Program-made: the position numbers and the translations under genes
Part shown: positions 1 through 12,624 of the stretch, piece after piece
Position numbering within the stretch: the stretch's first letter is position 1
Layout of the letters: each line of letters opens with the position of its first letter
From: Bacteriovoracaceae bacterium UBA2428
GTDB taxonomy: Bacteria; Bdellovibrionota; UBA2428
Length of the DNA: 12,624 nt
Direction: 5' to 3'
NCBI GenBank assembly: GCA_002343545.1
Contig: DDRA01000075.1
Span: forward strand, 1-12,624
Notes under the pieces: model-generated
What the model saw: only the letters and a program-made list of their open reading frames with translations
Database searches by the model: none
What the model was told of the DNA's origin: nothing

Positions 1-249
1 GCCAATGCCGGGGTGCTTGCCACCCCGGTTCTCGGTGAGATTGGCGCCGACGCGACCCTTCAAGATGCCGTCGCGACGCGCGATCCAAAAGCGCCGCACG
101 AAAACGAAAGGGCCGTGCAGGTAATCCTGCCAGTGGGACTCGGGTTCGAGCCCGATGCGGTAGGGATCGCGGCGTAAAAGCCCCGGCGTCGCGGCAAAGT
201 CGGCTTCGAGCGCCGCGCCGTCCACCGGAACGATCTCGACCGCGCTCAC
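1..249 (-). CDS. Probable GNAT-family N-acetyltransferase, N-terminal part (cut by window edge)
   Basis: The first 83 codons of a gene that continues past the left edge. The start is GTG at 249, which overlaps the upstream stop codon as GTGA and has a GAGGA ribosome binding site 7 bases upstream (257-261). The visible residues include RRDPYRIGLEPESHWQDYL at about 27-45, then a beta-rich stretch with WIARRDGILKGRVGANL at about 57-73. This resembles the N-terminal half of GNAT acetyltransferases, where a 'DPxW.PPL...' region precedes 'ARRDGxxVGRIAA' strands. The acetyl-CoA binding loop would lie outside the window, so the family is an inference from a fragment. As the last visible gene of the operon it may acylate the pathway product. 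The reading frame is certain; the product is only moderately sure. Confidence 0.55.
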   Translation of the reverse strand, partial: MSAVEIVPVDGAALEADFAATPGLLRRDPYRIGLEPESHWQDYLHGPFVFVRRFWIARRDGILKGRVGANLTENRGGKHPGIG

Positions 250-2975
250 TCGAGGATCCTCACTTCGCCTTTGCCGGCGTCGACGCGTACGCGCATGCCC
301 GTCTTGAGGCGGGTCATGAGGCCGCCCGAAATGCCGACGATCGTCGGGAGCCCCAGCTCGCGCGCGACGACCGCCGAGTGCGAGAGGAGACTACCCCGCT
401 CGATCAAGAGACCGCCGCAAGCCGGGTAGAGCGGGACCCATCCCGGATCCGTACGCGAGGTCACGAGGATCTCGCCCGCGAGCCCGACCGTGTCTCTGAG
501 TTCGTGCGCGACGCGCACGACGCCCTCGATGACGCCCGGGCAGCAGGGCGTGCCGAGCAAGACGTTGGGGTCGTCGCTCACGAGGGGCTCCGACTTCAGA
601 AGATCGCCGTCCATGAGGACGTTCGCGTGGCGAATCGAGTTGCCCGCGGCGCCGTAGGTCAGCAAACGTTCGGGCGGCGACGGCGTCCGTCGGTAGACCT
701 CGAACTCGCGGAAGCGCGCCGCGACGACCGGGCGGAAGTCCGACAGCACCGCGCGGCCCTCGACGTAGCCCACCCACTCGTCCACGGTCATGTAGAAGAT
801 ATCGCGCGGCGCCTCGATCGCGCCGGACCGTGCGAGCTTCTCGCCGGCCGCGCGGAAGAGGTTGCGCAGAAGTCCGTAGACTTTCGTGCGGGCGAAGCGC
901 AGGTTCTCACGGTGGCGCACGGCGCGACGCGCGTTCCCGAGCACCCAGAAGTACACGAGGCGGCGCAGAGCGCCGAGCTTGCCGCGAACCTTCTTCTCGG
1001 CGGCGTCGCGGATCGCCTCTTCGCGCTCCTTCATGGCCTGAATCGAGTAGGACTTCATGCGCACGTAGTTGGCCACGACGTTGAGCGCGAAGCTCGGGTC
1101 GTCGTGCAAGTCGGGCTCTTCGAGCTTGAGCTCGTTCACGCAGCGGAAGCCGTATTTGTCGAGAAAATCGGCGAAGCGCGCGTGCAGCTCCGCGTGCTCC
1201 TTCGATTCGCGGATCGCGTCCCACGCCTTCGCGGGATCGAGCGCGAGGTACCACTCGCGGCGCGCGGCGGGGCCGTTGTCGATCGCGTCGGCGATACGCA
1301 TGAGGGCCTTCGTGGGCTCGGTGCTTTCGAGGTCACCCTGCCCGCAGAGAAGATCGTTCTGCAGCGAGGCCCCCGCGTCGCCCTCGGCGACCCACTTGCC
1401 GGTGAGGCTCTTGAGCGTGCCGAAGAAGACCATGCAGAGGAAGTCGTTGATGAGGGGGACCTGCCAACGTTGCAGGAGCTCCTCTTGGAGTTCGCGGTAG
1501 TAGTCGGCGAGCTCCGGCAGCGCAAGCTTGCCGAGATCGCGGCGACGGCTGCGCTGGTAGATCGCGTCGAAGTCACGGTGGAAGTCGTTCACGATGCGAT
1601 CGATGTTCCAGTACCAGTAGAAGCCCGCCCCCATGAGACGGGCCTTCACGCCGAAGGAGTACTTCGGAGCTTGCGACATGAAGTCGAAGAGCGAGCCGTG
1701 CTCGGGCTTGAGGTTCTGCTTCACGCCCATCATGGTTTCCATGAAGCCCGGGTTCGTGCTCGCGCCCGGCATGAGCAGCAGGAGCCGGTACCAACTCAAG
1801 AGATTGTAGTAAACGCGCCCGCGCACGAGACCGAGCATGTTGCGGAAGTGATATTCGTGCGCGCGCACGACGGGCTTCGGGACGCCCATGACGTCGCAGA
1901 ACTGCAGGTAGACCTCGCGGTAGGTCCAGCTCGCGAACGAAAAGGTGAGGGGCGTCGTGACGCCGCTGAAACTCTCGATGATGTTCGAGTTATCCCAGAG
2001 CGTGGGCGCCGTGCCGTTCACGTGCGGGTCGTAGAAGGCCGCCGGCGGGACTTGCGTGATCGGACGCGTCTGCAGACAGTATATCTTGCCCTCGGCGAGC
2101 GACCACTCCATGTCCTGCGGTCCGCCGAAGCGCTCTTCGAGGCGCAGCGCGAGACGCGAGATCTCGGCGATCTGCGCGTCGCTCAGCGCGGCGGCCGAGG
2201 CGCGCGGTTCCGCGACCGGCACCTGCCGCAAACCGCCTTCGGGCGACTGGCGGAACTCGGCTTCCTTCTTGACGACTTGGCGCTTGGTGATCTCGAAACT
2301 CGAGCGATTCACGACGAAGTGATCCGCGTCCAAAGCGCCGCTCACGAGCCCTTCGCCCTGGCCCCAAACCCCGTCGACCACGAGGTGGTCGCGATCGAGC
2401 GGGCTCACGGGGTTGCGGCTGAAGCAGACGCCCGCGGCTTCGGAGTCCACCATGAGCTGCACGACGACGCCCATGCGGATGCCCGTCACGGCGAGGCCGT
2501 TCTCGCGCCGGTAACTGAGCGCGCGGTCCGAGTACGCCGAAGCCCAGCAGCGGCGCAGGGAATCGAGCACCGCCTCGAGTCCCTTTTGGAAAAGGTAGCT
2601 CGAGAACATGCCCGCGAAGGAGTGATCCTTGGAATCTTCGTCGATGCCGCTCGAACGAACCGCGACGAAGCGATCGGCGAGATTCATCTTGGTGAGCGCG
2701 CACTGGATCTCGGCCCGCAGCTCGGCGGGGATCTCGAGGCTCAGGAAAAGGCGTTCCTTTTCTTCGTGGCTCTCCGGCAAGCGCTCCGCGAGACCGTGCG
2801 CCGAGAGGAAAGCCTGAAAGGCTTCGTCGCCGACGCAGAACCAGGCCGGCACCGGAAAGCCCGCCGAGGACATGCGCGCCATGTTGAGGGCCTTGCCGCC
2901 CCCTTCGCGCCGGAAGCGATCGAGCGGAGTATCGGCGTGCAGAAGCAAGGCGAGATCAGGATTGGACTTCGTCAT
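246..2975 (-). CDS. PEP-synthase/rifampin-phosphotransferase-like dikinase-family phosphotransferase
   Basis: A 909-residue enzyme built like rifampin phosphotransferase: an N-terminal ATP-grasp PPDK domain (about 15-310), a helical middle domain (about 325-770) and a C-terminal swivelling phosphohistidine domain (about 800-905). Visible motifs are GGGKALN (25-31), VRSSGIDEDS (106-115), SFAGMFSSY (119-127), the ATP-grasp closing motif DMEW...LQTRPIT (288-307), and the phosphocarrier loop LLSHSAVVARELG with His866. The PEP-binding TIM barrel of true PEP synthase is absent. In this family ATP's beta-phosphate is carried by the His to an acceptor bound in the middle domain; the acceptor here is unknown and is probably the pathway's own small molecule. 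I chose ATG at 2975 because it overlaps the prenyltransferase stop as ATGA and has GGGAG 7 bases upstream. A start at 3077 would run 106 bases into the upstream gene. The gene lies within the P450-ligase-UbiA operon. Confidence 0.85.
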   Translation of the reverse strand: MTKSNPDLALLLHADTPLDRFRREGGGKALNMARMSSAGFPVPAWFCVGDEAFQAFLSAHGLAERLPESHEEKERLFLSLEIPAELRAEIQCALTKMNLADRFVAVRSSGIDEDSKDHSFAGMFSSYLFQKGLEAVLDSLRRCWASAYSDRALSYRRENGLAVTGIRMGVVVQLMVDSEAAGVCFSRNPVSPLDRDHLVVDGVWGQGEGLVSGALDADHFVVNRSSFEITKRQVVKKEAEFRQSPEGGLRQVPVAEPRASAAALSDAQIAEISRLALRLEERFGGPQDMEWSLAEGKIYCLQTRPITQVPPAAFYDPHVNGTAPTLWDNSNIIESFSGVTTPLTFSFASWTYREVYLQFCDVMGVPKPVVRAHEYHFRNMLGLVRGRVYYNLLSWYRLLLLMPGASTNPGFMETMMGVKQNLKPEHGSLFDFMSQAPKYSFGVKARLMGAGFYWYWNIDRIVNDFHRDFDAIYQRSRRRDLGKLALPELADYYRELQEELLQRWQVPLINDFLCMVFFGTLKSLTGKWVAEGDAGASLQNDLLCGQGDLESTEPTKALMRIADAIDNGPAARREWYLALDPAKAWDAIRESKEHAELHARFADFLDKYGFRCVNELKLEEPDLHDDPSFALNVVANYVRMKSYSIQAMKEREEAIRDAAEKKVRGKLGALRRLVYFWVLGNARRAVRHRENLRFARTKVYGLLRNLFRAAGEKLARSGAIEAPRDIFYMTVDEWVGYVEGRAVLSDFRPVVAARFREFEVYRRTPSPPERLLTYGAAGNSIRHANVLMDGDLLKSEPLVSDDPNVLLGTPCCPGVIEGVVRVAHELRDTVGLAGEILVTSRTDPGWVPLYPACGGLLIERGSLLSHSAVVARELGLPTIVGISGGLMTRLKTGMRVRVDAGKGEVRILE
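257..261 (-). promoter_or_regulatory. Ribosome binding site for the GTG-started GNAT-like gene
   Basis: GAGGA on the minus strand, 7 bases before GTG at 249. It lies inside the last codons of the upstream gene and supports an otherwise uncertain GTG start that overlaps the preceding stop by 4 bases. Confidence 0.55.
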
Positions 2976-3832
2976 TTTGGAGCTCCCGAGGAATAGAGGG
3001 CGACCAAGATCCAGAGATGCGCGAGTAGCGAGAGGGTCGCGAGTCCCTCGACGACCTTGAAGCGCGAAGGCTTCCACACGAGCAGCGCGCCGCTCAGCAC
3101 GAGCGCGCCTTGCAGCGGCCAGAGCCAGGGACCGATGCCGAGGCCGTAGGCGCCCCAGGCCGAAAGCGCCGCGCAGAGCGTGTAGAGCGCCCAGCTACGC
3201 CGGGGACCGTAGACGGAGAGGTAGGTCTTCAGGATGGGATGCGCCGAAGGATCGAGCTTGCGGCAGATCTCGTAGGCAAAGAAAGATCCCAGGATCAGCC
3301 ACGAGAACGAGAACGTGGTGGCAACCGGCGTCGGACCGGGGTGCAGATCGACCGCGAAGAAGCAGAGACCCACGATGACGATTTGGTGCGAAATCGCGTA
3401 AAGGAGCGGGCGGCGACCGAGCCAATCGCCCACGAAGAATTCGCGGTACATGAGCAGGAGGTAAACGGTCACGAGCGCGTAAAGGGCGCCCGAACACCAA
3501 CCGCCCATGAGGGCTGCCAGTCCCGCGAACACGAACATTCCTACCGCGACGGCGCGCAGCGCGCGACCCACTTCGGTCGTCGTGAGCAGTCCGCGCGGCA
3601 GCGGCCGCTCGGGGTGCGCGACGCGATCCTTGTCGAGATCCTTGATCTCGTCCATGAGCCGAAGCTCGCCCGTGAAGAGGAAGGCGCCGACCATCGCGAC
3701 GGCGAAGGCCGCCCAGGAAAACTCGGGCGCGAGGCGACCGGCCGAAGCCGCGAGGCCGCCGGCCACGAGCAGATTGGGAACGACGGGAAAGCGTTCCTTG
3801 AAGTAAAGGCCCCACTTCATCGAGTCAGCCAT
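2972..3832 (-). CDS. UbiA-family membrane prenyltransferase
   Basis: A 286-residue polytopic membrane protein with about eight hydrophobic segments and the first aspartate-rich UbiA motif clearly present: D61-x3-D65-x3-D69-R70 followed by HPERPLPRG (73-81). In UbiA enzymes this loop binds the Mg-diphosphate of an isoprenyl donor. The second motif is atypical: YEICRKLD (187-194) followed by TYLSVYG (203-209). That matches a non-ubiquinone UbiA subgroup with 'E.xRK.....TYS..xG' rather than the usual second DxxxD. The family transfers prenyl groups to aromatic or other acceptors, or in one branch phosphoribose to polyprenyl phosphate, so the substrate is open. The start at 3832 has a strong AAAGGAG site 4 bases upstream and overlaps the ligase gene by 16 bases. 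An alternative ATG at 3820 would give a 4-base ATGA overlap like the other junctions but has poorer spacing from that site. Confidence 0.85.
   Translation of the reverse strand: MADSMKWGLYFKERFPVVPNLLVAGGLAASAGRLAPEFSWAAFAVAMVGAFLFTGELRLMDEIKDLDKDRVAHPERPLPRGLLTTTEVGRALRAVAVGMFVFAGLAALMGGWCSGALYALVTVYLLLMYREFFVGDWLGRRPLLYAISHQIVIVGLCFFAVDLHPGPTPVATTFSFSWLILGSFFAYEICRKLDPSAHPILKTYLSVYGPRRSWALYTLCAALSAWGAYGLGIGPWLWPLQGALVLSGALLVWKPSRFKVVEGLATLSLLAHLWILVALYSSGAPK
2983..2987 (-). promoter_or_regulatory. Ribosome binding site fixing the phosphotransferase start
   Basis: GGGAG on the minus strand, 7 bases before ATG at 2975. It lies within the last codons of the prenyltransferase gene and decides the start in favour of 2975 over the in-frame ATG at 3077. 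Confidence 0.6.
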
Positions 3833-5268
3833 GCGGCTCCTTTCTTGAGGGTCGCCGCGCGGTCGATGCGGGCCCGGTGGCGTCGATCACGCTGAATGCG
3901 CGCCTCGACGCGAATTTCGATCTCGGGAAACTGGGCGCGGATCTCGGCGTCGCGCGCCGAGACGCCCTCGCCCACGAGCGCGAGGCGGCCGCGGGGATCA
4001 CGGTGCACGAGCGCGGCGCTCGACCCGAACCAGGCGTAGAAACGCTGCTCGAGCTCGAAAAGCGCCACGTCCTGCTGCGCGCGGCCGCCGTACCAGTGGA
4101 TCCCCTCGGCATCCGCCGCGATGCGATCGCCCATGAGGTGCCAGACGTCGCCGTTCGCGTCGCGACGCTTGTTCTCGCGGTTGTCCTTTTCGCTACCCAG
4201 GTACATCGGGCAGACCTGGCCGCCCGCGACCCAAAGTCCCTTTTCGTCGCTCGCGAAGCGGGTGCCTTCGGCCGGCGTCCCCACGCAGAGGGTTTGGAAG
4301 TAGCCGCGCCCGCGGCTGCGGCGCACGGCCTCGCGGGCGTCGATGAGGGCGACGGGCTCGGCTTCGCTGCTGCCGTAGACGTGGGTGACCCGCGCGTCGG
4401 GCCAACGATCGAAGGCCCGCTCGAAGATCGCGCAGTCCGTGAGCGCGCCGCCGACCTGGATGGAGCGCAAGGCGTCGGCGCGGCCGTGCTTGAGGAACTG
4501 CCGCAGGAAGGCCGGACCGCAAGAGAGGGTCTCGGGGCGCACGCCGGTCGGCAGCTCGCCGACGAGGGCAAGACGCGAAGCTTTCCAGTCGGCGGGCACG
4601 ATGACGGAACCGCGCCCGGAGGCGAGATTACTGAGGGCGAGATTCGCGAAGACGCAAAGATCCGGGCCCGCGTAGGCCTCGAAGCCGAAGAGCCCTTCCA
4701 GGATTTCCTGGTGATGCGCAAGGTAGCCATGCGTGCGCACGACGCCCTTGGGCGCGCCCGTCGTGCCCGATGTAAAGGTCACGATGCCGATCTGCGAAGA
4801 GTCGACGTCGCGGGCGCGCGCGGCCTCGCCCGTCGAGGCCTTCGGAAGTTCCGAGGTGCGTATCCAGTGCGGAACGGCGCGGATCGCCGACGAGCGCAGG
4901 CCCCAGAGCGAGCCCATCCATCCGCTCACGAACGCCTTCGGGCGCATGAGCTCGATGACGTGGCGAATATTGGCGAGCGGCATCCACGGCTCGACGAGCA
5001 TGAGCGTGGCGCCCTGCGCGAGGGTCGCCATGACCCACGCGAAGAAAACGGGGCTCAAGGTGTCGGCGAGCACGACCGTGTCGCCCGGCCCCACCCCGCG
5101 CGACGCGAGCAGGGACTGTCCCTTGGCCACGAGCGCGCGGAACTCGCCGAAGCTCACGTGATCCGCGTTCGTGAGCGAGTCGCGCGACTTGAGAAAGAGA
5201 ATGGCCGTCTTCGCCGGATCGACGCCCTTACGCGAAAGGAAAAGCTCGGTGCAATTTTTCGTCGTCAT
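3817..5268 (-). CDS. OleC-like AMP-forming acyl ligase (ANL superfamily)
   Basis: A 483-residue adenylate-forming enzyme. Visible core motifs are the P-loop TFTSGTTGAPKGV (164-176), the A5 motif YGSSEAEPV (298-306), HLMGDR (377-382) in place of the usual YxTGD, and GGR at 394-396. The combination YGxxEAxPV, WHxMGD and a C-terminal D-RH-x-x-(K/R)-I-x-R block (461-470, DRRHRARIDR) resembles OleC, the beta-lactone synthetase of long-chain olefin biosynthesis, more than ordinary acyl-CoA ligases. The usual C-terminal 'PKTxxGK' catalytic-lysine block is not seen, and the lysine expected in the OleC-type 'RHxxKI' is Arg467. It probably activates a carboxylic acid as its adenylate; whether it then makes a thioester, an ester or a beta-lactone cannot be told. 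No OleA, OleB or OleD is in the window. The start at 5268 overlaps the P450 stop as ATGA. Confidence 0.8.
   Translation of the reverse strand: MTTKNCTELFLSRKGVDPAKTAILFLKSRDSLTNADHVSFGEFRALVAKGQSLLASRGVGPGDTVVLADTLSPVFFAWVMATLAQGATLMLVEPWMPLANIRHVIELMRPKAFVSGWMGSLWGLRSSAIRAVPHWIRTSELPKASTGEAARARDVDSSQIGIVTFTSGTTGAPKGVVRTHGYLAHHQEILEGLFGFEAYAGPDLCVFANLALSNLASGRGSVIVPADWKASRLALVGELPTGVRPETLSCGPAFLRQFLKHGRADALRSIQVGGALTDCAIFERAFDRWPDARVTHVYGSSEAEPVALIDAREAVRRSRGRGYFQTLCVGTPAEGTRFASDEKGLWVAGGQVCPMYLGSEKDNRENKRRDANGDVWHLMGDRIAADAEGIHWYGGRAQQDVALFELEQRFYAWFGSSAALVHRDPRGRLALVGEGVSARDAEIRAQFPEIEIRVEARIQRDRRHRARIDRAATLKKGAAWLTR
3837..3843 (-). promoter_or_regulatory. Strong ribosome binding site for the UbiA-family gene
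   Basis: AAAGGAG on the minus strand, 4 bases before ATG at 3832 and 16 bases before the alternative ATG at 3820. It is the strongest Shine-Dalgarno sequence seen in the operon and favours the longer 286-residue product, although the shorter start would restore the 4-base overlap pattern. Confidence 0.6.
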
Positions 5269-6602
5269 CGTTGCTCTCGCTTCGTGACGCGCAACCAGAC
5301 GCCGTCTTTCGTGCCGATCGTCACCTTCGCGTCGGCGACGGGATCGCGGCCCGCGACGGGCGCGAAGTCGAAGCGCTTGACCATCTCGGCCAATACGACC
5401 GCGATCTCCATCGTCGCAAGGTTACGGCCGATGCAGAGTCGCGGCCCGAGCCCGAAGGGAAAGTAGGCATCTCGACGCAAGGAGGCCTGGCGTTCGGGCG
5501 CGAAGCGATCGGGATCAAATTCCTCGGGCCGCTCCCAGAAGGCCGAATCGCGCTGCGTGACGTAGGGACTCACGAGGATGATCGAGCCGGCCGGGATGTG
5601 GTAGCCACCAAGCGTGTCGTCGGCGAGGGCGCGGCGGGACCAGGCCCATCCCGCGGGGTAGAGACGCAGGGATTCCTCGACGACGCGGTAGAGGTAACGG
5701 AATCCGCGCAGAGTCGTCGCGTCCATAGGCTGGCCGTCGACCTCGGCGCGTATGCGCGCCACGATCTCGGGCCGCTTCGACAGGAGCCAAAGCGACCACG
5801 ACAGCGAATGCGCCGTCGTCTCGTGGCCGGCAAGCAGCAAGGTCACGATCTCGTCGCGGACCTGACGATCGCCCATGACCTCGCCCGTCTCGGGATCTTG
5901 GGCCTTGAGCAGGAGCGAAACGAGCGTCCGCCCGGGCTCCGTGCGCGCCCGTTCGTGCCGCACGATCTCCTCGACGATCTCGTCGATCGCCGCGACGGCG
6001 GCGCGGAACTCGTCGCGGGCGGCCGAGGGCCACCAGTCCGGCGTGGGTACGAGGGAATAGAAGCGTTTGATGAGGTAGTCGTTCACGACCTGCATCGCGG
6101 GGTGCAGCCGCGCGAAGGTCTCGCGCATCTCGGTGCCGAAGAGCGCCCGCCCTACGATCTCGAGCGCGAGCTTCATCATCTCGGCCTCGACGTCGATCTC
6201 GCGATCCGTCGAAGCGTCCCACTTCTCGATCGTCGTCGCGGCGGCGTTCGCCATGATGGGGATGAGCGAGACGAGATACTCCATCTGGAACATGGGCTGC
6301 ATCGTGCGCCGCTGCTTCTTCCACAGCTCGCCCGAACTCGTGAAGATGCCGTTGCCGAAGATGGCGCCCAGATTCGTCGCCTTCTCGTAGTTCTTCATGC
6401 GGGTGACCATGACGGCGTGCACGTCGTCGGGATGGTTGACGAGATGCACGAGATGCCCCGCGAGGCGGTAGCGCACGACGTCGCCGTAGCGTTTCCGTGA
6501 TTCGGTCAGGAACTGCAGGCGATCCTGACGGTACTCGAAGAGATTCCCCAACCACGGGAGGCCCCTCGGCCCCGGAGCGATGCGAATTTCGGGCGCGGCC
6601 AT
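5265..6602 (-). CDS. Cytochrome P450 monooxygenase
   Basis: A complete 445-residue soluble bacterial P450 with all signature elements: the proline-rich entry GPRGLPWLGN (11-20), the I-helix oxygen-binding motif AGHETT (258-263), the K-helix ExxR (E310-R313), the PEEFDPDRF meander (359-367) and the heme loop FGLGPRLCIG (383-392), where Cys390 is the iron ligand. There is no N-terminal membrane anchor. It most resembles the CYP110/CYP102-like bacterial group acting on fatty acids, terpenes or polyketide-like substrates, from general appearance only. The ATG at 6602 follows a purine-rich GAGGGGGA sequence at good spacing. It is the first gene of the operon and runs into the acyl ligase with an ATGA overlap, so it probably hydroxylates the precursor or product of the same pathway. 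Ferredoxin and reductase partners are not in the window. Confidence 0.93.
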   Translation of the reverse strand: MAAPEIRIAPGPRGLPWLGNLFEYRQDRLQFLTESRKRYGDVVRYRLAGHLVHLVNHPDDVHAVMVTRMKNYEKATNLGAIFGNGIFTSSGELWKKQRRTMQPMFQMEYLVSLIPIMANAAATTIEKWDASTDREIDVEAEMMKLALEIVGRALFGTEMRETFARLHPAMQVVNDYLIKRFYSLVPTPDWWPSAARDEFRAAVAAIDEIVEEIVRHERARTEPGRTLVSLLLKAQDPETGEVMGDRQVRDEIVTLLLAGHETTAHSLSWSLWLLSKRPEIVARIRAEVDGQPMDATTLRGFRYLYRVVEESLRLYPAGWAWSRRALADDTLGGYHIPAGSIILVSPYVTQRDSAFWERPEEFDPDRFAPERQASLRRDAYFPFGLGPRLCIGRNLATMEIAVVLAEMVKRFDFAPVAGRDPVADAKVTIGTKDGVWLRVTKREQR

Positions 6603-6710
6603 ACCTCGAGTCCCCCTCTGCGTTCTGCACCCGTCAGTGTTTCATAGCGAGGCCCGATTACCAGAGCGGGGAGCGTCGGCCGAACGTCAGCAAAAGCGGA
6701 ACGAAGGCGG

Positions 6711-6766
6711 CGAGGTGCGGCCGGCGAGGTGCGGCCGGCGAGGTGCGGCCGGCGAGGCGCCCCGGC
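6711..6766 (-). repeat. 14-base tandem repeat array A (CCGGCCGCACCTCG on the minus strand)
   Basis: Three perfect head-to-tail copies of a 14-base unit (6711-6724, 6725-6738, 6739-6752; CGAGGTGCGGCCGG as written on the plus strand), then a degraded fourth copy (6753-6766, about 9 of 14 matching). In minus orientation the unit is CCGGCCGCACCTCG, identical at 12 of 14 positions to the unit of the array at 8682-8765. The array begins about 33 bases after the stop of the unknown gene at 6799 and reads in that gene's sense direction. Confidence 0.9.
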
Positions 6767-6773
6767 GCCTTTT
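6755..6773 (+). terminator. Short GC-rich hairpin with T run (terminator-like, doubtful)
   Basis: AGGCGCC (6755-6761) and GGCGCCT (6764-6770) are perfect inverted arms around CC, with a TTTT run at 6770-6773 on the plus strand. The shape is like an intrinsic terminator, but no plus-strand gene ends here; both flanking genes are on the minus strand, where no T run follows. It overlaps the degraded last unit of array A and may simply be a by-product of the repeat. Confidence 0.25.
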
Positions 6774-6798
6774 CGCACCGGCAGCGCGTCAAACGCAT

Positions 6799-7479
6799 TC
6801 ATTCTTCCGAGATGGGCGGCAGATCGAGGTACAAAAATGGCACCCCTTCCGCCTGGAGGGGAGCCACGGCCAGGTCGAAGTCGACCGAGCGGACGAGCAG
6901 CGAAAAATGGGAGCGCAGGAGAAACCACGAAAAGCCGAGCGTCGATCCCACGCCCTTCTCCCGCGCGAGCGCGTCGTGTTTGGGCGCCAAGTAGGCGATG
7001 CGGCGCATCGATTCCAAAAGATGACGGTACATGCAAAGGAAGGCCGCGGGCGCGTGAACCCGGTCGATCTCGGCCTGAAGGACGGGACGCAAGGCCGCGA
7101 AGCCGCCCCTACGGTAGGCGACCTTGAGGTCGCGCACGACGGCCGCCGCGTTCGGGCGACGCAAGGCTTCGAGCGAGGGAATCTCGTCCGGGCGCATCGG
7201 GCGCAAATCGGGCGCCAAGTGCATCGACACGTAGTCGTCGACGACGATCGGAACCCCGGCGCGCTGGTAGCGACGCGCGTACCAGTCGACGGGCCGAGAC
7301 AGGAAGGCGGCCAGGCGCTCGTTCCGGATGAGCTGACGCGAATAGGGCAAGGAACGGCCACCCGACATCTCGGCGTAGATCGGCATCCGCTTCGTGTTGA
7401 TGGACATCGCTTCGCGCAGGTGACGCTCCAGCGCCCCCCACTTCGGATCGTCGAGCAATCCTTCCAGCTTCGTCGTCAT
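6799..7479 (-). CDS. Hypothetical protein of unknown family (226 aa)
   Basis: I do not recognise this protein. It has no signal peptide and no membrane segment. It is rich in Arg and Leu and predicted mostly helical, with a central run of helices (about 80-185) containing VVDDYVSMHLAPDLRPM near residues 80-96. The C-terminal half has an aromatic-rich stretch (TLGFSWFLLRSHFSLLV, about 178-194) and ends in PPISEE. Third-position G/C preference matches the neighbours, which supports a real gene. I took ATG at 7479 because it is the first Met followed by a normal soluble N-terminus (MTTKLEGLL); an in-frame start at 7566 would add 29 Arg-rich residues read through the divergent intergenic region. 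The ribosome site is weak (GGGG just upstream). It is transcribed toward the P450 operon 196 bases away and may or may not be co-transcribed with it. Confidence 0.65.
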   Translation of the reverse strand: MTTKLEGLLDDPKWGALERHLREAMSINTKRMPIYAEMSGGRSLPYSRQLIRNERLAAFLSRPVDWYARRYQRAGVPIVVDDYVSMHLAPDLRPMRPDEIPSLEALRRPNAAAVVRDLKVAYRRGGFAALRPVLQAEIDRVHAPAAFLCMYRHLLESMRRIAYLAPKHDALAREKGVGSTLGFSWFLLRSHFSLLVRSVDFDLAVAPLQAEGVPFLYLDLPPISEE

Positions 7480-7525
7480 ACCCCGAGGATAACAGCCGGA
7501 GGCCGCCGCGTCCTTCCGCCCGAAC

Positions 7526-7537
7526 GGAACACGTTCC
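7526..7537. promoter_or_regulatory. Inverted repeat in divergent intergenic region (candidate operator)
   Basis: GGAAC-AC-GTTCC is a perfect 5-base inverted repeat in the 130-base gap between the divergent genes starting at 7479 and 7610. Its position would suit a shared regulator site. The arms are short and could occur by chance; no clear -35/-10 pair was found on either strand of this gap. Confidence 0.25.
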
Positions 7538-7609
7538 CGGCGTCGAGTTCCTGACGTTTGCGGCATCCGCGCGCTCGTCGGAAGATCAAGGGATGGAGCC
7601 TTTGCCCGG

Positions 7610-8695
7610 ATGAGTCGCGCCTACTTCAAGACGCTCAACTACACGCTCGCGAACGAAGACACCGCGCTCGAGCTCGCGATCCTTCCCGACGGCGTCGACC
7701 ACGTGTTGAGCGTCGCCGGCAGCGGCGGCCGCGTCATGCCCCTGCTCGCGCGCTCGCCCCGCCACGTGACCTGCGTCGATCTCGTGCCGGAGCAACTCTG
7801 GCTCACGGAGCTCCGCTTCGAATCGCTACGGGCCTTCGATCTGGAAGACTTCAAAAGCTTCTGGGGCTACCCGCCCTCGCCCGCCGACCCCGAAAAACGC
7901 CGTCGTCTCTTCGAACGGATCCGCCTTTCGCCGGAAGCCCACGCTTTCTTGTGGGGACTCTTCGAGGCGAAGGCCTGGAACTCGATCCTCTACGACGGCA
8001 AGTGGGAAGACACCTTCGCCAAGATCAGTCGCCTGACACGCTTCTTCACGGGCGAAGCCGGCGCCAAGCTCTTCGAATGCCGCACCCTCGAAGAACAGAG
8101 ACGCTACCTCGCGAGCGAGTTTCCCTGGATGGGCTGGCGCGCGCTCATCTTCTTATTCGGGAACGCGCGGCTCTTCAACACGCTCCTCTACAAGGGGCAC
8201 TTTCCGCGCAAGAACATCCCCAAGAGCTTCTACGCCTTCTACTTCGACGCCTTCCGCGCCCTCTTCGAGCGCGGGCTCGCGCGCGAAAACTACTTTCTCG
8301 AGGTGCTCTTCTTCGGCCGCGTCGTGCACCCCGAGGCCTGCCCGATCGAGTGCGATCCCGAAGTCTACGCCCGGGCCAAACGCGGGCTCGAGGGCGCCAA
8401 TATCGAGTACCGCGCCGGGGATCTCATCGAGCTGACCGCGCAAGCCTCCCGACCCGTGGATTTTCTCTCGCTCTCCGACGTCCCCTCGTATTTTTCGGGC
8501 GAGCTGGAGCGGAACTTCCTGCAGCGTTGCGCGCGGAGACTCGCCCCGAACGCGATCGTCGTGCTGCGGAACTACATGCACGTTCCCGAGGGACTCGACC
8601 GGACGGGCTTCCGCACGATCACGGCCGAGCACTCGGCCGCGATCGCCCGCGAAAAACTGCAGATGTACGACGTCGAGATCTTCCGCCGCGCCTAG
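7610..8695 (+). CDS. DUF3419 family protein (BtaA-like SAM-dependent aminocarboxypropyltransferase fold)
   Basis: A 361-residue protein with the features of DUF3419: NYTLANED near the N-terminus (10-17), the SAM-binding glycine loop VLSVAGSGGR (32-41), CVDLVPEQLWLTELR (55-69), FWGYPPSP (84-91), and a late Rossmann strand DFLSLSDVPSYF (284-295) followed by VVLRNYMH (317-324). The characterised member BtaA transfers the 3-amino-3-carboxypropyl group of S-adenosylmethionine to diacylglycerol in betaine-lipid synthesis. The partner N-methyltransferase BtaB is not nearby, so the acceptor is uncertain; many DUF3419 proteins are uncharacterised. It is probably cytosolic or peripheral at the membrane. 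ATG at 7610 has only a distant GGAG site. The gene ends with TAG inside the first unit of a 14-base repeat array and is convergent with the Fic-like gene. No BtaB fusion is present. Confidence 0.82.
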   Translation: MSRAYFKTLNYTLANEDTALELAILPDGVDHVLSVAGSGGRVMPLLARSPRHVTCVDLVPEQLWLTELRFESLRAFDLEDFKSFWGYPPSPADPEKRRRLFERIRLSPEAHAFLWGLFEAKAWNSILYDGKWEDTFAKISRLTRFFTGEAGAKLFECRTLEEQRRYLASEFPWMGWRALIFLFGNARLFNTLLYKGHFPRKNIPKSFYAFYFDAFRALFERGLARENYFLEVLFFGRVVHPEACPIECDPEVYARAKRGLEGANIEYRAGDLIELTAQASRPVDFLSLSDVPSYFSGELERNFLQRCARRLAPNAIVVLRNYMHVPEGLDRTGFRTITAEHSAAIAREKLQMYDVEIFRRA

Positions 8696-8765
8696 CCGGC
8701 CGCGCCTAGCCGGCCGCGCCTAGCCGGCCGCGCCTAGCCCCCTAGCCGGGCGCGACCGCACCTAG
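8682..8765 (+). repeat. 14-base tandem repeat array B (CCGGCCGCGCCTAG) spanning two convergent stop codons
   Basis: Three perfect head-to-tail copies (8696-8709, 8710-8723, 8724-8737), preceded by a copy matching 12 of 14 (8682-8695) inside the end of the DUF3419 gene. They are followed by a shortened copy CCCCCTAG (8738-8745) and a degenerate one ending in CCGCACCTAG (8746-8765) that reaches the end of the Fic-like gene. Each unit ends in the self-complementary CTAG, so TAG is present on both strands; because 14 is not a multiple of 3 the stops fall in all frames. The unit matches array A (6711-6766, minus strand) at 12 of 14 positions. Confidence 0.92.
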
Positions 8766-11446
8766 GGCGACGGGGCGTCGGGTTTTGGAGCCGCGTCCGT
8801 GGGCGGAGGCGGCGCCGCTTGCGTGGCCGCGTCGACCGCGGACTCGCCCTTCAGTTGGAAATCCTTGCGCGCGAAGATCTGACCGATCGTCGAGTCCGGA
8901 TTGGCGAGCGCCGCTTCGACCTGGGCCAGTAGCTCGGGAGTCTCGACCTGGACGGGCGCGAGGTCCGCTTCGGTGATGGAGTGGACGATGCGCCACGGCG
9001 CCGCCGGACCGCGCTGCAACACCTCGTACTGATTCCCCCGCGTCGCGACGTGGTTCCAGCCCACGTTCGCCGCGTCCAGCTCGACGTACCACGCCCGCCC
9101 GCCGAAACCCGGATCCGTGTAGGGGAAGAACTCGAAGCCCGGGCGCACGAGGTGGATCGCGCTCGTCGTGAAGGAGATGTTGTCCTTCCCGACGAAATTG
9201 TCCTGGTGCAGGAAGTATTCGATCGTCATGCGGTCGAGGTTCTCCGAGACGCCGCGGCTCGCGAACTCGGATCCGTAGACCCGGCCGACGCCGTCCTTCA
9301 GCAGCTTCGCGACGGCGTCGAAGCCCACGTCGGGCTGGTCGGCGTGCCGTTTGATGAAGCTCGGCAACAGCTTGCCGACGAGTTTGGCGAGCTTCGGGTG
9401 CTTCTCGCGGAAGCCCGCGATCCCCGCGAGCGTCTTGGCCTTGAACTCGGGATCTTGCATGTCGCCCAGGAGCTTGCCCAAGCGATCGCGGATACCGTCG
9501 GCGCCCGGGATCGAGTTCAGGATCTTGCGGACCTGCGACTCCGGCAGGAAGCCGATGTGACGGGCCGCGCCCGCGTTCGTACGGAACAGCACGACCTTGT
9601 CGTCGGGGAAGCGCTTGACGCCTTCGTCGAAGCTCGCGACGCCGACCTTACTGCGCTCGAGGTGGGCGCGCATCGCGCGCGACATCGCCGTCGACTCGAA
9701 GAGGGCGCGGACTTCGGGCTTGAGCGCGGCTAGGTTCTTCTCGTAGTCGGCGAGCAAAGTGCGCGCCGCCGCGTGGAGCTTGCGCCGGCTCTCGCGAACT
9801 TTCGCGACGAGGTCGGGGAACTGCTTGCCGGCCGCCCGCTCGTACTCGCGGAAGATGAGATCCATCTTCTCGTACTGCGAAAGCACGTGGCCGGGGTTGC
9901 GGTAGATCTTCTTGGGGCTGTTCGTGAGGGACTTCTCCTCGAAGGGAGTCTGATCGCGTAGGCTCCGGATGAGCACGCGCACGGGGTCGTCGGTCGGAAT
10001 ATCGATGGCCTGCTCGAAGAGCTCGCGCTGCCACGGGTACAAGAAAAGCTCGCCCGCCTCGTTCGCCGCCTTGATCGTCGCGTAGTCGGCGATGCGGACG
10101 TCAGCGCCCTTGAGCGCGCCCGACTCGAGGTCGCGGAGCATCTGGAAGTGGGATCGGTAAACCTCGCGACGGGCCGCGAGGAAGGAGCTTCGGCGCGTCG
10201 GCTTGCCTTTGCGGCGGGGGTGGATCTTGAGTTCCGTGCCCGCGTGCTCGTAGAGGAAGTACGCGCGGTCCGAGATCGGGTAAAGCTGGCCGTCGCGCAG
10301 GACGTACGGAACCGCGTCGGGCCCGTACAGGAAACCGTCTTCGAGCAGGAGGAAGTCGCGGCCGCCGAGCCGGATTTCCTTGCCGCGGAAATCCTCGAGG
10401 GACTGGGCGACGACGCGCCGGGCGTTCGGCCGCCGCGCGAGGCTCACGCGCGTCTCGATCGTGTCGGGAATGGCCGCTGGCTTTTCTTCGCGGGCGTACT
10501 GCATGAAGCGCTCGATGCCTTCGCGCAGACGCAGGGCCCATTCGTCCGTCGTGAGCGTGAGGGCCTCGGATCCGTCTTCCAAGATGGGCGGCGGCAGGCC
10601 CGCTTCGCTCAGGATACGGTCGACGAAGAGGCGCGCCACGCGGCCGTTCCCCTCGTCGAAGGGGCGAATCGCGAGGAAGGCGCGGTGGAACTCGGCGGCG
10701 ACCTGGATGGGATCGGGATCGACCTTGTGGGCTTCGTACCAGGCGATGAGGTCTTGCAGCTTCTTCTCGGTCTCTTGGGGCGCGGCGTAGACGATCCAGC
10801 CGCGGCGTTCGCCGACGCCCGATCCCACGGGGAGCTCGACGAAGCCGTGACGATCGCCGCTCTTGCCGAGCCAGGGGTTCGAGACGAGCGCACCGTAGGC
10901 TTCTTCGTCGAGCGGACGCCACACGTGCTCGCGCGAGACGGCCGGGAAGCGCTTCACGCGACCGCCCGCGGCGGCCGTGAGTCCTTCCGGCACGAGCGTA
11001 TTCATCCGGCCCAGGGCCGGCTCCAATCCGCCGAGCGCCGTGCGATGAACGTCCTTGACGAGCTGGAGCGTCGGCTTGAACTCGCCGCGCGGAATGTTCG
11101 AGAGCAAACGATCGGCGCGCTTCCACGCGCGGTAGTTCTCGAGCCCGTACAGCTCGACGCCGTGGAGGAGCGGCGAACGGTTCGCCTCGTAGTCGCGCAG
11201 GCGCACGAAGCGCAGGAACTCCGAAGGCTGCTCGGCCCACTGCGACCACTTGCGCACGCCCTCGACCTCGGCCCAGAAAGCGCGGGCTTCGTCGAGACGA
11301 CTCGCGACGGAGCCGAGCTGATCGCCGAGGGGACGCAAGACGTCGGCGACGACGCGAGCGCACGAGGCGTCGACGCTGCCGAAGGCGAAGGCCGGCGAAA
11401 ACGCGAAGAAGGTCGCGACGGAGCGAAGCAAAACTGCGGATCTCAT
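8762..11446 (-). CDS. Predicted exported protein with Fic-like domain (His replaced by Arg) and C-terminal ADP-ribosyltransferase-like region
   Basis: An 894-residue protein. From ATG at 11446 it begins with a Sec-type signal peptide: MR, a hydrophobic core, then PAFA with likely cleavage after residue 21. An in-frame TTG at 11464 would add six residues before the signal and has no better ribosome site. Residues about 85-320 look like a Fic domain, with TLQLVKDVHR (126-135) and the signature IRPFDEGNGRVAR (260-272). The canonical motif is HPFx(D/E)GNGRxxR, so the catalytic His is Arg261 (codon CGC). The C-terminal region (about 615-825) has LFRTNAG around Arg622, SFTTS (758-762) and NQYEVLQRG with Glu808, spaced and ordered like the R-S-E residues of ADP-ribosyltransferases; this is pattern recognition, not proof. 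The middle (about 350-600) is not recognised. The tail is rich in Pro and Ala. It is possibly a secreted or periplasmic effector or toxin. Frame and Fic-like signature are firm; activity is open. Confidence 0.72.
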   Translation of the reverse strand: MRSAVLLRSVATFFAFSPAFAFGSVDASCARVVADVLRPLGDQLGSVASRLDEARAFWAEVEGVRKWSQWAEQPSEFLRFVRLRDYEANRSPLLHGVELYGLENYRAWKRADRLLSNIPRGEFKPTLQLVKDVHRTALGGLEPALGRMNTLVPEGLTAAAGGRVKRFPAVSREHVWRPLDEEAYGALVSNPWLGKSGDRHGFVELPVGSGVGERRGWIVYAAPQETEKKLQDLIAWYEAHKVDPDPIQVAAEFHRAFLAIRPFDEGNGRVARLFVDRILSEAGLPPPILEDGSEALTLTTDEWALRLREGIERFMQYAREEKPAAIPDTIETRVSLARRPNARRVVAQSLEDFRGKEIRLGGRDFLLLEDGFLYGPDAVPYVLRDGQLYPISDRAYFLYEHAGTELKIHPRRKGKPTRRSSFLAARREVYRSHFQMLRDLESGALKGADVRIADYATIKAANEAGELFLYPWQRELFEQAIDIPTDDPVRVLIRSLRDQTPFEEKSLTNSPKKIYRNPGHVLSQYEKMDLIFREYERAAGKQFPDLVAKVRESRRKLHAAARTLLADYEKNLAALKPEVRALFESTAMSRAMRAHLERSKVGVASFDEGVKRFPDDKVVLFRTNAGAARHIGFLPESQVRKILNSIPGADGIRDRLGKLLGDMQDPEFKAKTLAGIAGFREKHPKLAKLVGKLLPSFIKRHADQPDVGFDAVAKLLKDGVGRVYGSEFASRGVSENLDRMTIEYFLHQDNFVGKDNISFTTSAIHLVRPGFEFFPYTDPGFGGRAWYVELDAANVGWNHVATRGNQYEVLQRGPAAPWRIVHSITEADLAPVQVETPELLAQVEAALANPDSTIGQIFARKDFQLKGESAVDAATQAAPPPPTDAAPKPDAPSP

Positions 11447-11449
11447 GAA

Positions 11450-11462
11450 GTCCGTATCGGAC
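11450..11462. promoter_or_regulatory. Inverted repeat next to the start of the Fic-like gene
   Basis: GTCCG-TAT-CGGAC, a perfect 5-base inverted repeat with a 3-base loop, ends 3 bases before the ATG at 11446 in the 80-base divergent gap. It could be an operator or an mRNA hairpin covering the ribosome binding region of the Fic-like gene. If translation starts at TTG 11464 instead, it is simply coding sequence. Confidence 0.3.
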
Positions 11463-11526
11463 AAAGTCCAAGAGATTCTGAGCGGGCCTCCCCGTTTCCG
11501 GGCGGAACGTTTAAGCTGGCGGGATC

Positions 11527-12555
11527 ATGGAGAAGCCGACCGATTCCCTACGCCCCTTCCTCATCGGCCGCGGCCGGGCCGGTTCGGCCATCGTGAAGGC
11601 CCTCGACCTGCTGCGTCGCACGGATCCTGATCTTCGCCTCGAAGAGTGCGTGCTCCTCCCGCGCGAGGCGGACTTCGGCGCCCTCCCCCCGAACGCGGTT
11701 CTTTGCGTCGCGAACCCCCACGCCCTGCACCCCGAAACGCTCGAGCGGGCCGCGCGCGCCGGCGTGCGCTACGCCCTCTGCGAAAAGCCGCTGGCCGTTT
11801 CGATGGGGGGCATCGAGCGCCTGCGACGCCTCGAAGGTCTCGAGGTCGCCGTCTTCCACGGTTACCGCGTGCAGTGGGGCATTCAGGCCCTCGCGCGCCG
11901 GCTTGCCGCCGGCGAGCTCGGCCAAGTCTTTCGCATCGAGATCCGCTATTGGCAATCCTCGGCCGCGCAACGCGCGCTCACCCAACAAGCCCCCGCGACG
12001 ACCGCACCGGTACCCGCGGCGAGCGCCCCGCCCAACTGGAAGAACGATCGCGCCTTGGCCGGCGACCACGACACCGTCGTGGACCTCGGCACGCACGCCC
12101 TGGATCTGGCGAGCTTCCTCGCGGGACGCCTGCCGATCTCGCTCGTGACCGAGCTTCTGCACGTGAACGCGGAAGCGCCCCACCGCGATACGCACGCCGA
12201 GATACGCGCGGACTTCGGGGCGGGGCTCGGCGCCCGCCTCTCGGCTTCCAAGGCGGTGCACGGCGCGGGCAACGACCTCGAAGTCGTCGTGCTCGGCACG
12301 AAAGCCGCGGCGACGTGGCGCTTTCAGCAACCCGACCAGCTCGAGATCGGCGCCGGGCGGGAACGCCGCATCCTCGCGCGCGACACGGCGACGGGCTCGG
12401 GTTTCACGCCCTTCCACGGGCTGGGCTGGATCGAGGGTTACTTCGAGATCGCGCGACGCGCCCTCCGCCAATGGCGGCTCGGCGAACGCGCCGATTTTCC
12501 GGAGCTGCGCGGATCGCTCGACCTCGCCGAACGCTTGCTCGCCAGCCTCGACTGA
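11527..12555 (+). CDS. Gfo/Idh/MocA-family NAD(P)-dependent oxidoreductase
   Basis: A 342-residue protein with the family's landmarks: an N-terminal dinucleotide-binding loop GRGRAG (14-19), the cofactor/substrate motif CEKPLA (85-90) with Lys87, and the catalytic block DLGTHALDL (186-194), where His190 and Asp193 fit the usual GxHxxD. The C-terminal half is the beta-sheet dimerisation and substrate domain. Members oxidise or reduce hydroxyl groups of sugars, inositols and related compounds; the substrate cannot be inferred. Between strands there is an unusual Ala/Pro/Thr-rich linker at about 154-169. The Rossmann part is shorter than usual (Glu86 rather than about 95). ATG at 11527 has a weak GCGGGA ribosome site. 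It is divergent from the Fic-like gene by 80 bases and has no sugar-pathway neighbour in view. Confidence 0.85.
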   Translation: MEKPTDSLRPFLIGRGRAGSAIVKALDLLRRTDPDLRLEECVLLPREADFGALPPNAVLCVANPHALHPETLERAARAGVRYALCEKPLAVSMGGIERLRRLEGLEVAVFHGYRVQWGIQALARRLAAGELGQVFRIEIRYWQSSAAQRALTQQAPATTAPVPAASAPPNWKNDRALAGDHDTVVDLGTHALDLASFLAGRLPISLVTELLHVNAEAPHRDTHAEIRADFGAGLGARLSASKAVHGAGNDLEVVVLGTKAAATWRFQQPDQLEIGAGRERRILARDTATGSGFTPFHGLGWIEGYFEIARRALRQWRLGERADFPELRGSLDLAERLLASLD

Positions 12556-12584
12556 AATTCGCGGAGATCCTCGGCGAATTTCAG
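12552..12584. terminator. Perfect 11-base inverted repeat after the oxidoreductase (possible bidirectional terminator)
   Basis: CTGAAATTCGC (12552-12562) and GCGAATTTCAG (12574-12584) are exact inverse complements around an 11-base loop, which itself can form GAG-ATC-CTC. The left arm contains the oxidoreductase stop TGA (12553-12555). The right arm contains TGA on the opposite strand (12581-12583), in frame with an open stretch entering from the right edge. There is no T run, so it is not a textbook intrinsic terminator. Confidence 0.5.
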
Positions 12585-12624
12585 GACTTGAAGGACATCA
12601 CGCATTCGACCGAGACCCGGCCGT
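12581..12624 (-). CDS. Possible C-terminal end of a convergent gene (fragment)
   Basis: A minus-strand frame open from the right edge encodes GRVSVECVMSFKS and then stops at TGA (12581-12583) in the mirror position to the oxidoreductase stop in the inverted repeat. The symmetry suggests two convergent genes sharing one hairpin. Only 13 residues are visible, the family cannot be recognised, and an open stretch this short can occur by chance. Confidence 0.3.
   Translation of the reverse strand, partial: GRVSVECVMSFKS

Follow-up and report, generated by a model that had tools for sequence, protein, structure and literature searches.

Around a phosphoenolpyruvate-synthase-like enzyme (PEPS) in the draft genome of Bacteriovoracaceae bacterium UBA2428 (assembly GCA_002343545.1) lies a gene set that recurs in several phyla, and that may well specify an undescribed pathway whose product is an alkyl lipid of homoserine type, N-acylated and exported towards the outer membrane. 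The existence of a conserved pathway, undescribed as far as open-licence full texts show, is much surer than the identity of its product; gene content, linkage, co-occurrence across genomes and the mutual exclusion within certain pairs of enzymes are direct observations. Each named enzyme comes from a known family, and the set as a whole matches none of the named systems with which it was compared. The window, that is, the whole stretch of DNA analysed, comprises bases 1-12624 at the left end of contig DDRA01000075.1 (39,482 bp); the genome amounts to 3.37 Mb and is 74% complete, and position 1 is the true end of the assembled contig instead of an arbitrary cut.

The original prediction, made from the letters of the window alone, had proposed here a biosynthetic operon of five minus-strand genes with no usual core synthase, a description that holds, and Pfam and NCBIfam agree with the families assigned. 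These genes are the first 83 residues of a GNAT-family gene truncated at the contig end (1..249), PEPS (246..2975, 909 aa), a UbiA-family membrane transferase (2972..3832; PF01040, 44 bits against a cut-off of 34.2), a short AMP-binding ligase of 483 aa related to OleC (3817..5268; PF00501, 104.7 bits) and a cytochrome P450 (5265..6602; PF00067, 299.6 bits), which is an accessory gene of the set. From the P450 to the GNAT start the consecutive overlaps are 4, 16, 4 and 4 bp, and PEPS has an ATGA in common with the UbiA stop. The overlapping arrangement predicted earlier is thus present, while a common transcript is likely, judged by the overlaps only. The GNAT call is a tentative one: the 83-aa fragment has no Pfam match of its own, and it is so called because it aligns (37.7% over 53 aa) with the start of full-length relatives that adjoin PEPS at the corresponding place, both of the full-length relatives scanned matching PF00583.

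A sixth gene, which the prediction did not count, is of the DUF3419/BtaA type and encodes a predicted S-adenosylmethionine (SAM):3-amino-3-carboxypropyl transferase (7610..8695, plus strand; PF11899, 120.1 bits against 28.2). It belongs to the set despite its opposite strand. The PF11899 match covers residues 4-340 of 361, and searching solved structures with the BtaA profile gave weak methyltransferase-type matches only.

The gene set conserved around PEPS

When GTDB genomes were scanned with a PEPS profile, at least 576 pattern stretches and at least 533 relatives were obtained, and the best 80 of 533 were kept. These 80 loci were picked by the PEPS patterns alone, independently of the neighbouring genes. 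Neighbours were counted with the same queries throughout (E ≤ 1e-5); 50 loci of 15 kb or more are termed long, and the controls were 20 stretches of 20 kb, each from a different Bdellovibrionota genome. Besides PEPS, six core functions are distinguished: a ligase (of two types, LIG and OLEC, the window carrying LIG), UbiA, BtaA, an amine-capping enzyme (GNAT or a formyltransferase, FMT), a thioester reductase (AAR together with an OleD-like protein, or an HMG-CoA-reductase-like enzyme, HMGR) and a lipid kinase (of DAGK type, or the membrane protein KIN9). For HMGR, KIN9, MMPL and LolA, at most four query sequences each were taken from the 80 loci themselves, and self-matches are counted. In addition, recurring families were obtained by clustering 81 loci without prior choice, a family being named if present at four or more of them. 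It should be noted that the loci are not independent, as Fisher tests assume, and weight is therefore put on the counts and on the PEPS tree.

Among the 50 long loci, UbiA was found at 46, a ligase at 45 (LIG 20, OLEC 25), BtaA at 40, GNAT at 32 and FMT at 13, while DAGK occurred at 21, the OleD-like protein at 18, AAR at 17, HMGR at 15, KIN9 at 13, the P450 at 9 and the helical protein X255 at 7. Transport and other partners were also frequent (ABC 11, MMPL 10, FtsX 9, LolA 9, FADD 3). In the 20 controls none of these set families was seen except KIN9, in one stretch; ABC matches occurred in six and FADD in one. The exporter families MMPL, FtsX and LolA-like were present at 22 of the 50 long loci and at 0 of the 20 controls. 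All six core functions accompany PEPS at 27 long loci, five at 7, four at 5, three at 7, two at 1, one at 2 and none at 1, whereas 19 controls have none and a single control has one.

Over all 80 loci, 28 have the six functions beside PEPS, under ten phylum names of which at least one is mislabelled: Bdellovibrionota accounts for 15, and each of the other nine for 1 or 2. BtaA is found at 46/80 loci, FMT at 15/80 and the P450 at 12/80. The phylum names follow the record titles, and draft genomes may be mislabelled. The titles include Gemmatimonadetes, Planctomycetes, Verrucomicrobia, Lentisphaerae, Kiritimatiellae, Bacteroidetes, Riflebacteria/Ozemobacter, Omnitrophota, Krumholzibacteriia and Myxococcales, among others; in one genome titled Euryarchaeota, PEPS is nearly identical to that of a Gemmatimonadetes genome.

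The arrangement of the genes is conserved as well. UbiA adjoins PEPS on the same strand at 62 of the 68 loci having UbiA, and at 52 of these 62 the ligase adjoins UbiA. Ligase, UbiA, PEPS and GNAT occur together at 40/80 loci, and with the P450 at 12/80, so that the genes predicted from the window are conserved together in relatives; the window order on one strand is kept at 22/80 loci for the four genes without the P450 and at 7/80 for all five. Nor was a published cluster or any description of this set found among open-licence full texts. However, the supposition that the five genes are the pathway is not supported; they form part of a larger set that includes BtaA, a thioester reductase and a lipid kinase.

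Within the phylum, a PEPS match of some kind was obtained in 76 of 97 related genomes. A UbiA match adjoins PEPS at all 25 high-scoring loci (L007-L031), and the other window families were seen at 0 of 9 PEPS-paralogue loci with short flanks (L002-L006, L032-L035). A first gene clustering in the phylum covered 20 stretches no longer than 20 kb, of which two came from the contig of the window. The order BtaA-P450-ligase-UbiA-PEPS-GNAT is found in L042, L040 and L055, the last being cut inside PEPS. A longer version in L051 and L049 has DAGK, OleD-like, AAR, BtaA, FMT, a hydrolase-half-like protein, ligase, UbiA, PEPS, ABC, MacB/FtsX and LolA-like genes; the L051 protein that resembles the hydrolase half of fused ligases has no Pfam match. 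Fusions were found at one locus each between an OLEC-type ligase and UbiA (L108) and between a FADD-type ligase and HMGR (L131), and in L045 an alpha/beta-hydrolase is fused to the ligase. In a Planctomycetes stretch (L132:1-11343), a second PEPS match lies at the edge, upstream of genes for a P450, an MFS transporter, GNAT, OLEC and UbiA.

Linkage was also examined at the genome level. An even draw from the phylum, with a completeness filter of 80%, supplied 240 genomes, the window's own genome being included (PEPS at E ≤ 1e-120, BtaA at E ≤ 1e-20). PEPS is present in 88 and BtaA in 86; both occur in 82 genomes, PEPS only in 6, BtaA only in 4 and neither in 148. The six PEPS-only genomes have PEPS of 410-678 bits, which are among the weaker ones. 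In the 82 genomes with both, the two genes are within 15 kb in 63, farther apart on the same contig in 1 (1.17 Mb) and on different contigs in 18. A chance neighbourhood is rejected by the control stretches together with this co-occurrence.

Every core function is present in the window's own genome, with GNAT as a fragment and the reductase and kinase at the ends of two other contigs. AAR, 45% identical to the AAR of L051, lies close to the end of contig C13, and contig C89 carries, beside a LolA-like gene, DAGK and an OleD-like gene truncated at the contig end. The genome also has an HMGR on contig C12 (L139:4937-7252), where the HMGR domain occupies residues 335-710 of a 771-aa open reading frame (ORF); it is distant from the cluster type (28.75% identity, 42 bits).

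Exchangeable enzymes and features of the core proteins

The members of the pairs GNAT/FMT, AAR/HMGR, DAGK/KIN9 and LIG/OLEC are mutually exclusive: both members of a pair were found at 0 of the 50 long loci and 0 of the 80 loci overall. HMGR (family C8) and KIN9 (family C9) occur where AAR/OleD-like and DAGK are absent, and among the long loci AAR is found with the OleD-like protein at 17, AAR with DAGK at 16 and HMGR with KIN9 at 12. On a FastTree tree of 80 PEPS (79 of the 80 loci and the window), the amine-capping enzyme and the kinase must each have changed at least 3 times and the reductase at least 6 times, so each of these three has been exchanged more than once. A swap of modules is seen in L099 and L100, whose PEPS fall inside the FMT/OLEC clade, yet stand alongside GNAT and LIG. 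Since non-homologous enzymes replace each other and exclude each other, the data suggest that the alternatives do the same job, that is, capping an amine, converting a thioester to an alcohol and phosphorylating that alcohol. For KIN9, a candidate member of the CTP-transferase/polyprenol kinase superfamily (PF01148), fold searches gave no firm match.

A mevalonate-supplying role of HMGR was considered and made unlikely by the distribution of mevalonate-diphosphate decarboxylase (MVD) and IspH. In the genomes with cluster HMGR (16 of the 19 loci having HMGR), MVD, searched with a strict model, is over the cut-off in 1 and weak in 3 more, while IspH is found in 13; G247 and G256 have neither and G250 has MVD without IspH, in genomes that may be incomplete. 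Because MVD is rare and IspH, of the other isoprenoid route, is common, the cluster HMGR probably serves isoprenoid supply only rarely. In L054, HMGR is fused to a C-terminal APH-type kinase domain within a locus with PEPS, BtaA and UbiA.

The start codon of PEPS is most likely the ATG at 2975, inside the 943-aa ORF and not at its beginning. It passes the PEP synthase equivalog model NF004881 (891.9 bits against 883); however, a Pfam scan (E ≤ 0.01) found only PF01326 and PF00391, the PPDK_N ATP-grasp and phosphohistidine swivel parts, and not PF02896, the C-terminal PEP/pyruvate-binding barrel. PEPS was therefore rejected as a PEP synthase proper, and many database entries named "phosphoenolpyruvate synthase" are probably wrong, since the model accepts a protein in which this domain was not found. 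An ATP-grasp and a swivel domain without the barrel make up the architecture of the rifamycin phosphotransferase RPH and of PigC/RedH. With these PEPS shares the domain order, the conserved ATP-grasp and swivel-His motifs and a long similarity, which is nearly full length for RedH (399.5 of 1350 bits) and PigC (349.2 of 1300); it remains far below the equivalog cut-offs, including that of RPH (331.5 of 999 bits), and has other neighbours. Rifampin resistance of the RPH type was rejected by score and gene context. The motifs GGK, RSS and SHSA are invariant in 14/14 aligned PEPS, all from Bdellovibrionota, and the enzyme consequently looks catalytically able.

The ligase and UbiA both have odd features. 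The window ligase misses the equivalog cut-offs of the OleC models (78 of 900 and 60.6 of 850 bits), and at the place of the C-terminal catalytic Lys, motif A10 of adenylate-forming enzymes, Arg is found in all 21 LIG-type members having the motif, the window included. The Lys is kept in 19/19 OLEC-type members having the motif, and 2 of 42 ligases are without it. Among the best 120 of 515 homologues of the window ligase, itself included, 116 have Arg, 3 Lys and 1 another residue. For UbiA, the first Asp motif, D(E/D)xKDxxxD, is present in 17/17 members. UbiA prenyltransferases usually have a second Asp-rich motif, which was seen in its usual form in 0/17; (E/D)xxRK...Y is found there instead, and some members retain other acidic residues near it. 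Because of the Arg in the ligase and the altered second motif of UbiA, plain carboxyl activation and plain prenyl transfer are doubtful, and these oddities suggest chemistry other than the ordinary acyl-CoA and prenyl kind. The solved structure nearest to the UbiA profile is digeranylgeranylglyceryl phosphate synthase (6m31, E 9.9e-07), an enzyme that forms an ether bond.

Proposed pathway and rival readings

The more constant partners of PEPS, namely BtaA, a thioester reductase and a lipid kinase, together with the exporters, point to a lipid product, and an envelope lipid would most simply give each core gene a role. We infer the chemistry and the product from the gene content, and leave the order of the steps undefined. 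An acyl thioester would be converted to a primary alcohol by AAR and the OleD-like protein in Bdellovibrionota and by the HMGR-like enzyme elsewhere, and the alcohol would receive its phosphate from the DAGK-type kinase or from KIN9, which may be a membrane kinase that uses CTP. UbiA could couple the lipid (phosphate) to an acceptor. BtaA, whose family is known for the head-group enzyme of betaine lipids, would move 3-amino-3-carboxypropyl from SAM, the amine would be capped by GNAT or the formyltransferase, and a carboxyl group may be activated or bound by the ligase. RPH-type enzymes transfer the beta-phosphate of ATP, and PEPS may likewise use it to phosphorylate an intermediate. The P450 would decorate the product in some members, and MacB/FtsX, LolA-like or MMPL proteins would carry the product outwards.

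The proposed logic has partial likenesses elsewhere. In phytol salvage, a phytol kinase is followed by a UbiA prenyltransferase, which is the same course from alcohol to phosphate to UbiA transfer; here, however, the alcohol would come from an acyl thioester, and UbiA lacks the usual second Asp motif. Aryl polyene and xanthomonadin-type envelope lipid clusters also combine a ligase with MMPL and LolA-like export parts, but no recurrent ketosynthase was seen in the present set and its other core enzymes are not known from those clusters.

Could the same genes make something else? A diffusible, lipid-tailed specialised metabolite such as an antibiotic, signal or pigment, rather than a membrane lipid, could be the product, and PEPS would then condense two halves in an ATP-dependent manner, as PigC/RedH do in prodigiosin synthesis. 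The nearly full-length RedH and PigC matches, the match of AAR to the N-terminal part of PigE (164.2 bits) and the P450 of some members are in line with it. We nevertheless consider it unlikely, since the scores fall far short of the cut-offs of the three models (1350, 1300 and 850 bits), no further prodigiosin family is among those at four or more of the 81 loci, and LolA-like and MacB/FtsX partners suit an envelope lipid better. A lower probability is given to a derivative of the Ole system (OleA, OleB, OleC and OleD), in which OleB-, OleC- and OleD-like proteins would make a beta-lactone or olefin that is then decorated. Such proteins are members of the set: the OLEC-type ligase scores 232.6 bits with the OleC models, the match of the OleD-like protein to OleD is weak at 28.6 bits, and the hydrolase fused to the ligase in L045 recalls OleB. 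Formyltransferases, at 15/80 loci, would also fit, as lipstatin carries a formyl group. However, the OleC (900, 850) and OleD (580) cut-offs are missed, the window ligase type is without the catalytic Lys, and no OleA thiolase is among the families at four or more of the 81 loci, of which three short ones have no Pfam match and one (C22) was unscanned, rarer genes being partly scanned. Moreover, we know of no place in the Ole pathway for BtaA, UbiA, PEPS or the kinase, which are core functions here.

Equally improbable is a lipid of known kind, such as a betaine, ornithine-like or ether lipid, made by genes that have simply gone unrecognised. Many of these phyla are poorly studied, and the window protein shares the PF11899 family with the betaine-lipid enzyme; unlike in the betaine-lipid system, it is tied to UbiA, PEPS, a kinase and a reductase, enzymes that a known lipid would leave unexplained. 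No BtaB or other N-methyltransferase family recurs beside PEPS, where the only candidate is a TPMT-type family at 5/81 loci (the rest of the genomes was not searched for BtaB), and GNAT or FMT would block N-methylation. Finally, in the predicted scheme the P450 oxidises a hydroxy or aromatic acid, which the ligase activates, and UbiA then adds a prenyl group and PEPS a phosphate. The five genes do overlap in one apparent operon, and aromatic acids are frequent substrates of the UbiA and AMP-ligase families. Still, this is very improbable: the P450, at 12/80 loci and 9/50 long ones, can hardly start the pathway, BtaA, the reductase and the lipid kinase are left without a role, the usual form of the second Asp motif is seen in 0/17 UbiA members, and the ligase has its Arg. 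BtaA, the reductase, the kinase and the exporters point to a lipid instead of the prenylated, phosphorylated acid.

The envelope-lipid reading thus remains the preferred one. Its fullest form is put forward more tentatively: a new class of membrane lipid, made by a modular pathway in several phyla, in which acyl reductase, lipid kinase and amine cap are each replaceable by an unrelated enzyme, HMGR is recruited for a lipid alcohol instead of mevalonate, and undescribed chemistry is performed by a UbiA that has just one Asp motif and by a phosphotransferase resembling RPH and PigC. If true, Bdellovibrio-type predators and, by titles, Planctomycetota, Verrucomicrobiota, Gemmatimonadota and Bacteroidota would have in common an envelope lipid that was not found described, and many proteins named "phosphoenolpyruvate synthase" would be misnamed. 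The non-homologous exchanges give a strong handle on function, for they lead one to expect an alcohol, the phosphate of that alcohol and an acylated amine. These predictions are directly testable, as Bdellovibrio bacteriovorus (strain kdesi, L104), which is grown in the laboratory, carries the formyltransferase variant.

Other genes of the window

The P450 contains the heme-Cys motif, here FGLGPRLCIG. Between the P450 and BtaA lies the gene of X255, an uncharacterised helical protein (6799..7566, minus strand, start codon uncertain), which is linked to the set at 7 of the 80 relative loci; besides the window it is found in L060, L065, L068, L074, L078 and L082. None of the seven members scanned has a Pfam match, and matches to solved structures are weak. 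The family forms a helical bundle in which His, Glu and Asp residues are invariant, and it possibly binds a metal.

To the right of BtaA follow a Fic-domain protein of 900 aa (8762-11464, minus strand; PF02661) and a GFO/IDH/MocA oxidoreductase assigned by family scan (11527-12555, plus strand), which is apparently outside the set; neither a Fic-domain nor a GFO/IDH family is named among those recurring at four or more of the 81 loci. The core of the Fic protein is RPFDEGNGRVAR. The usual Fic motif begins with His, and here Arg takes its place, which makes ordinary AMP transfer doubtful. The protein also matches the XopAC model weakly, at 41.7 of 450 bits.

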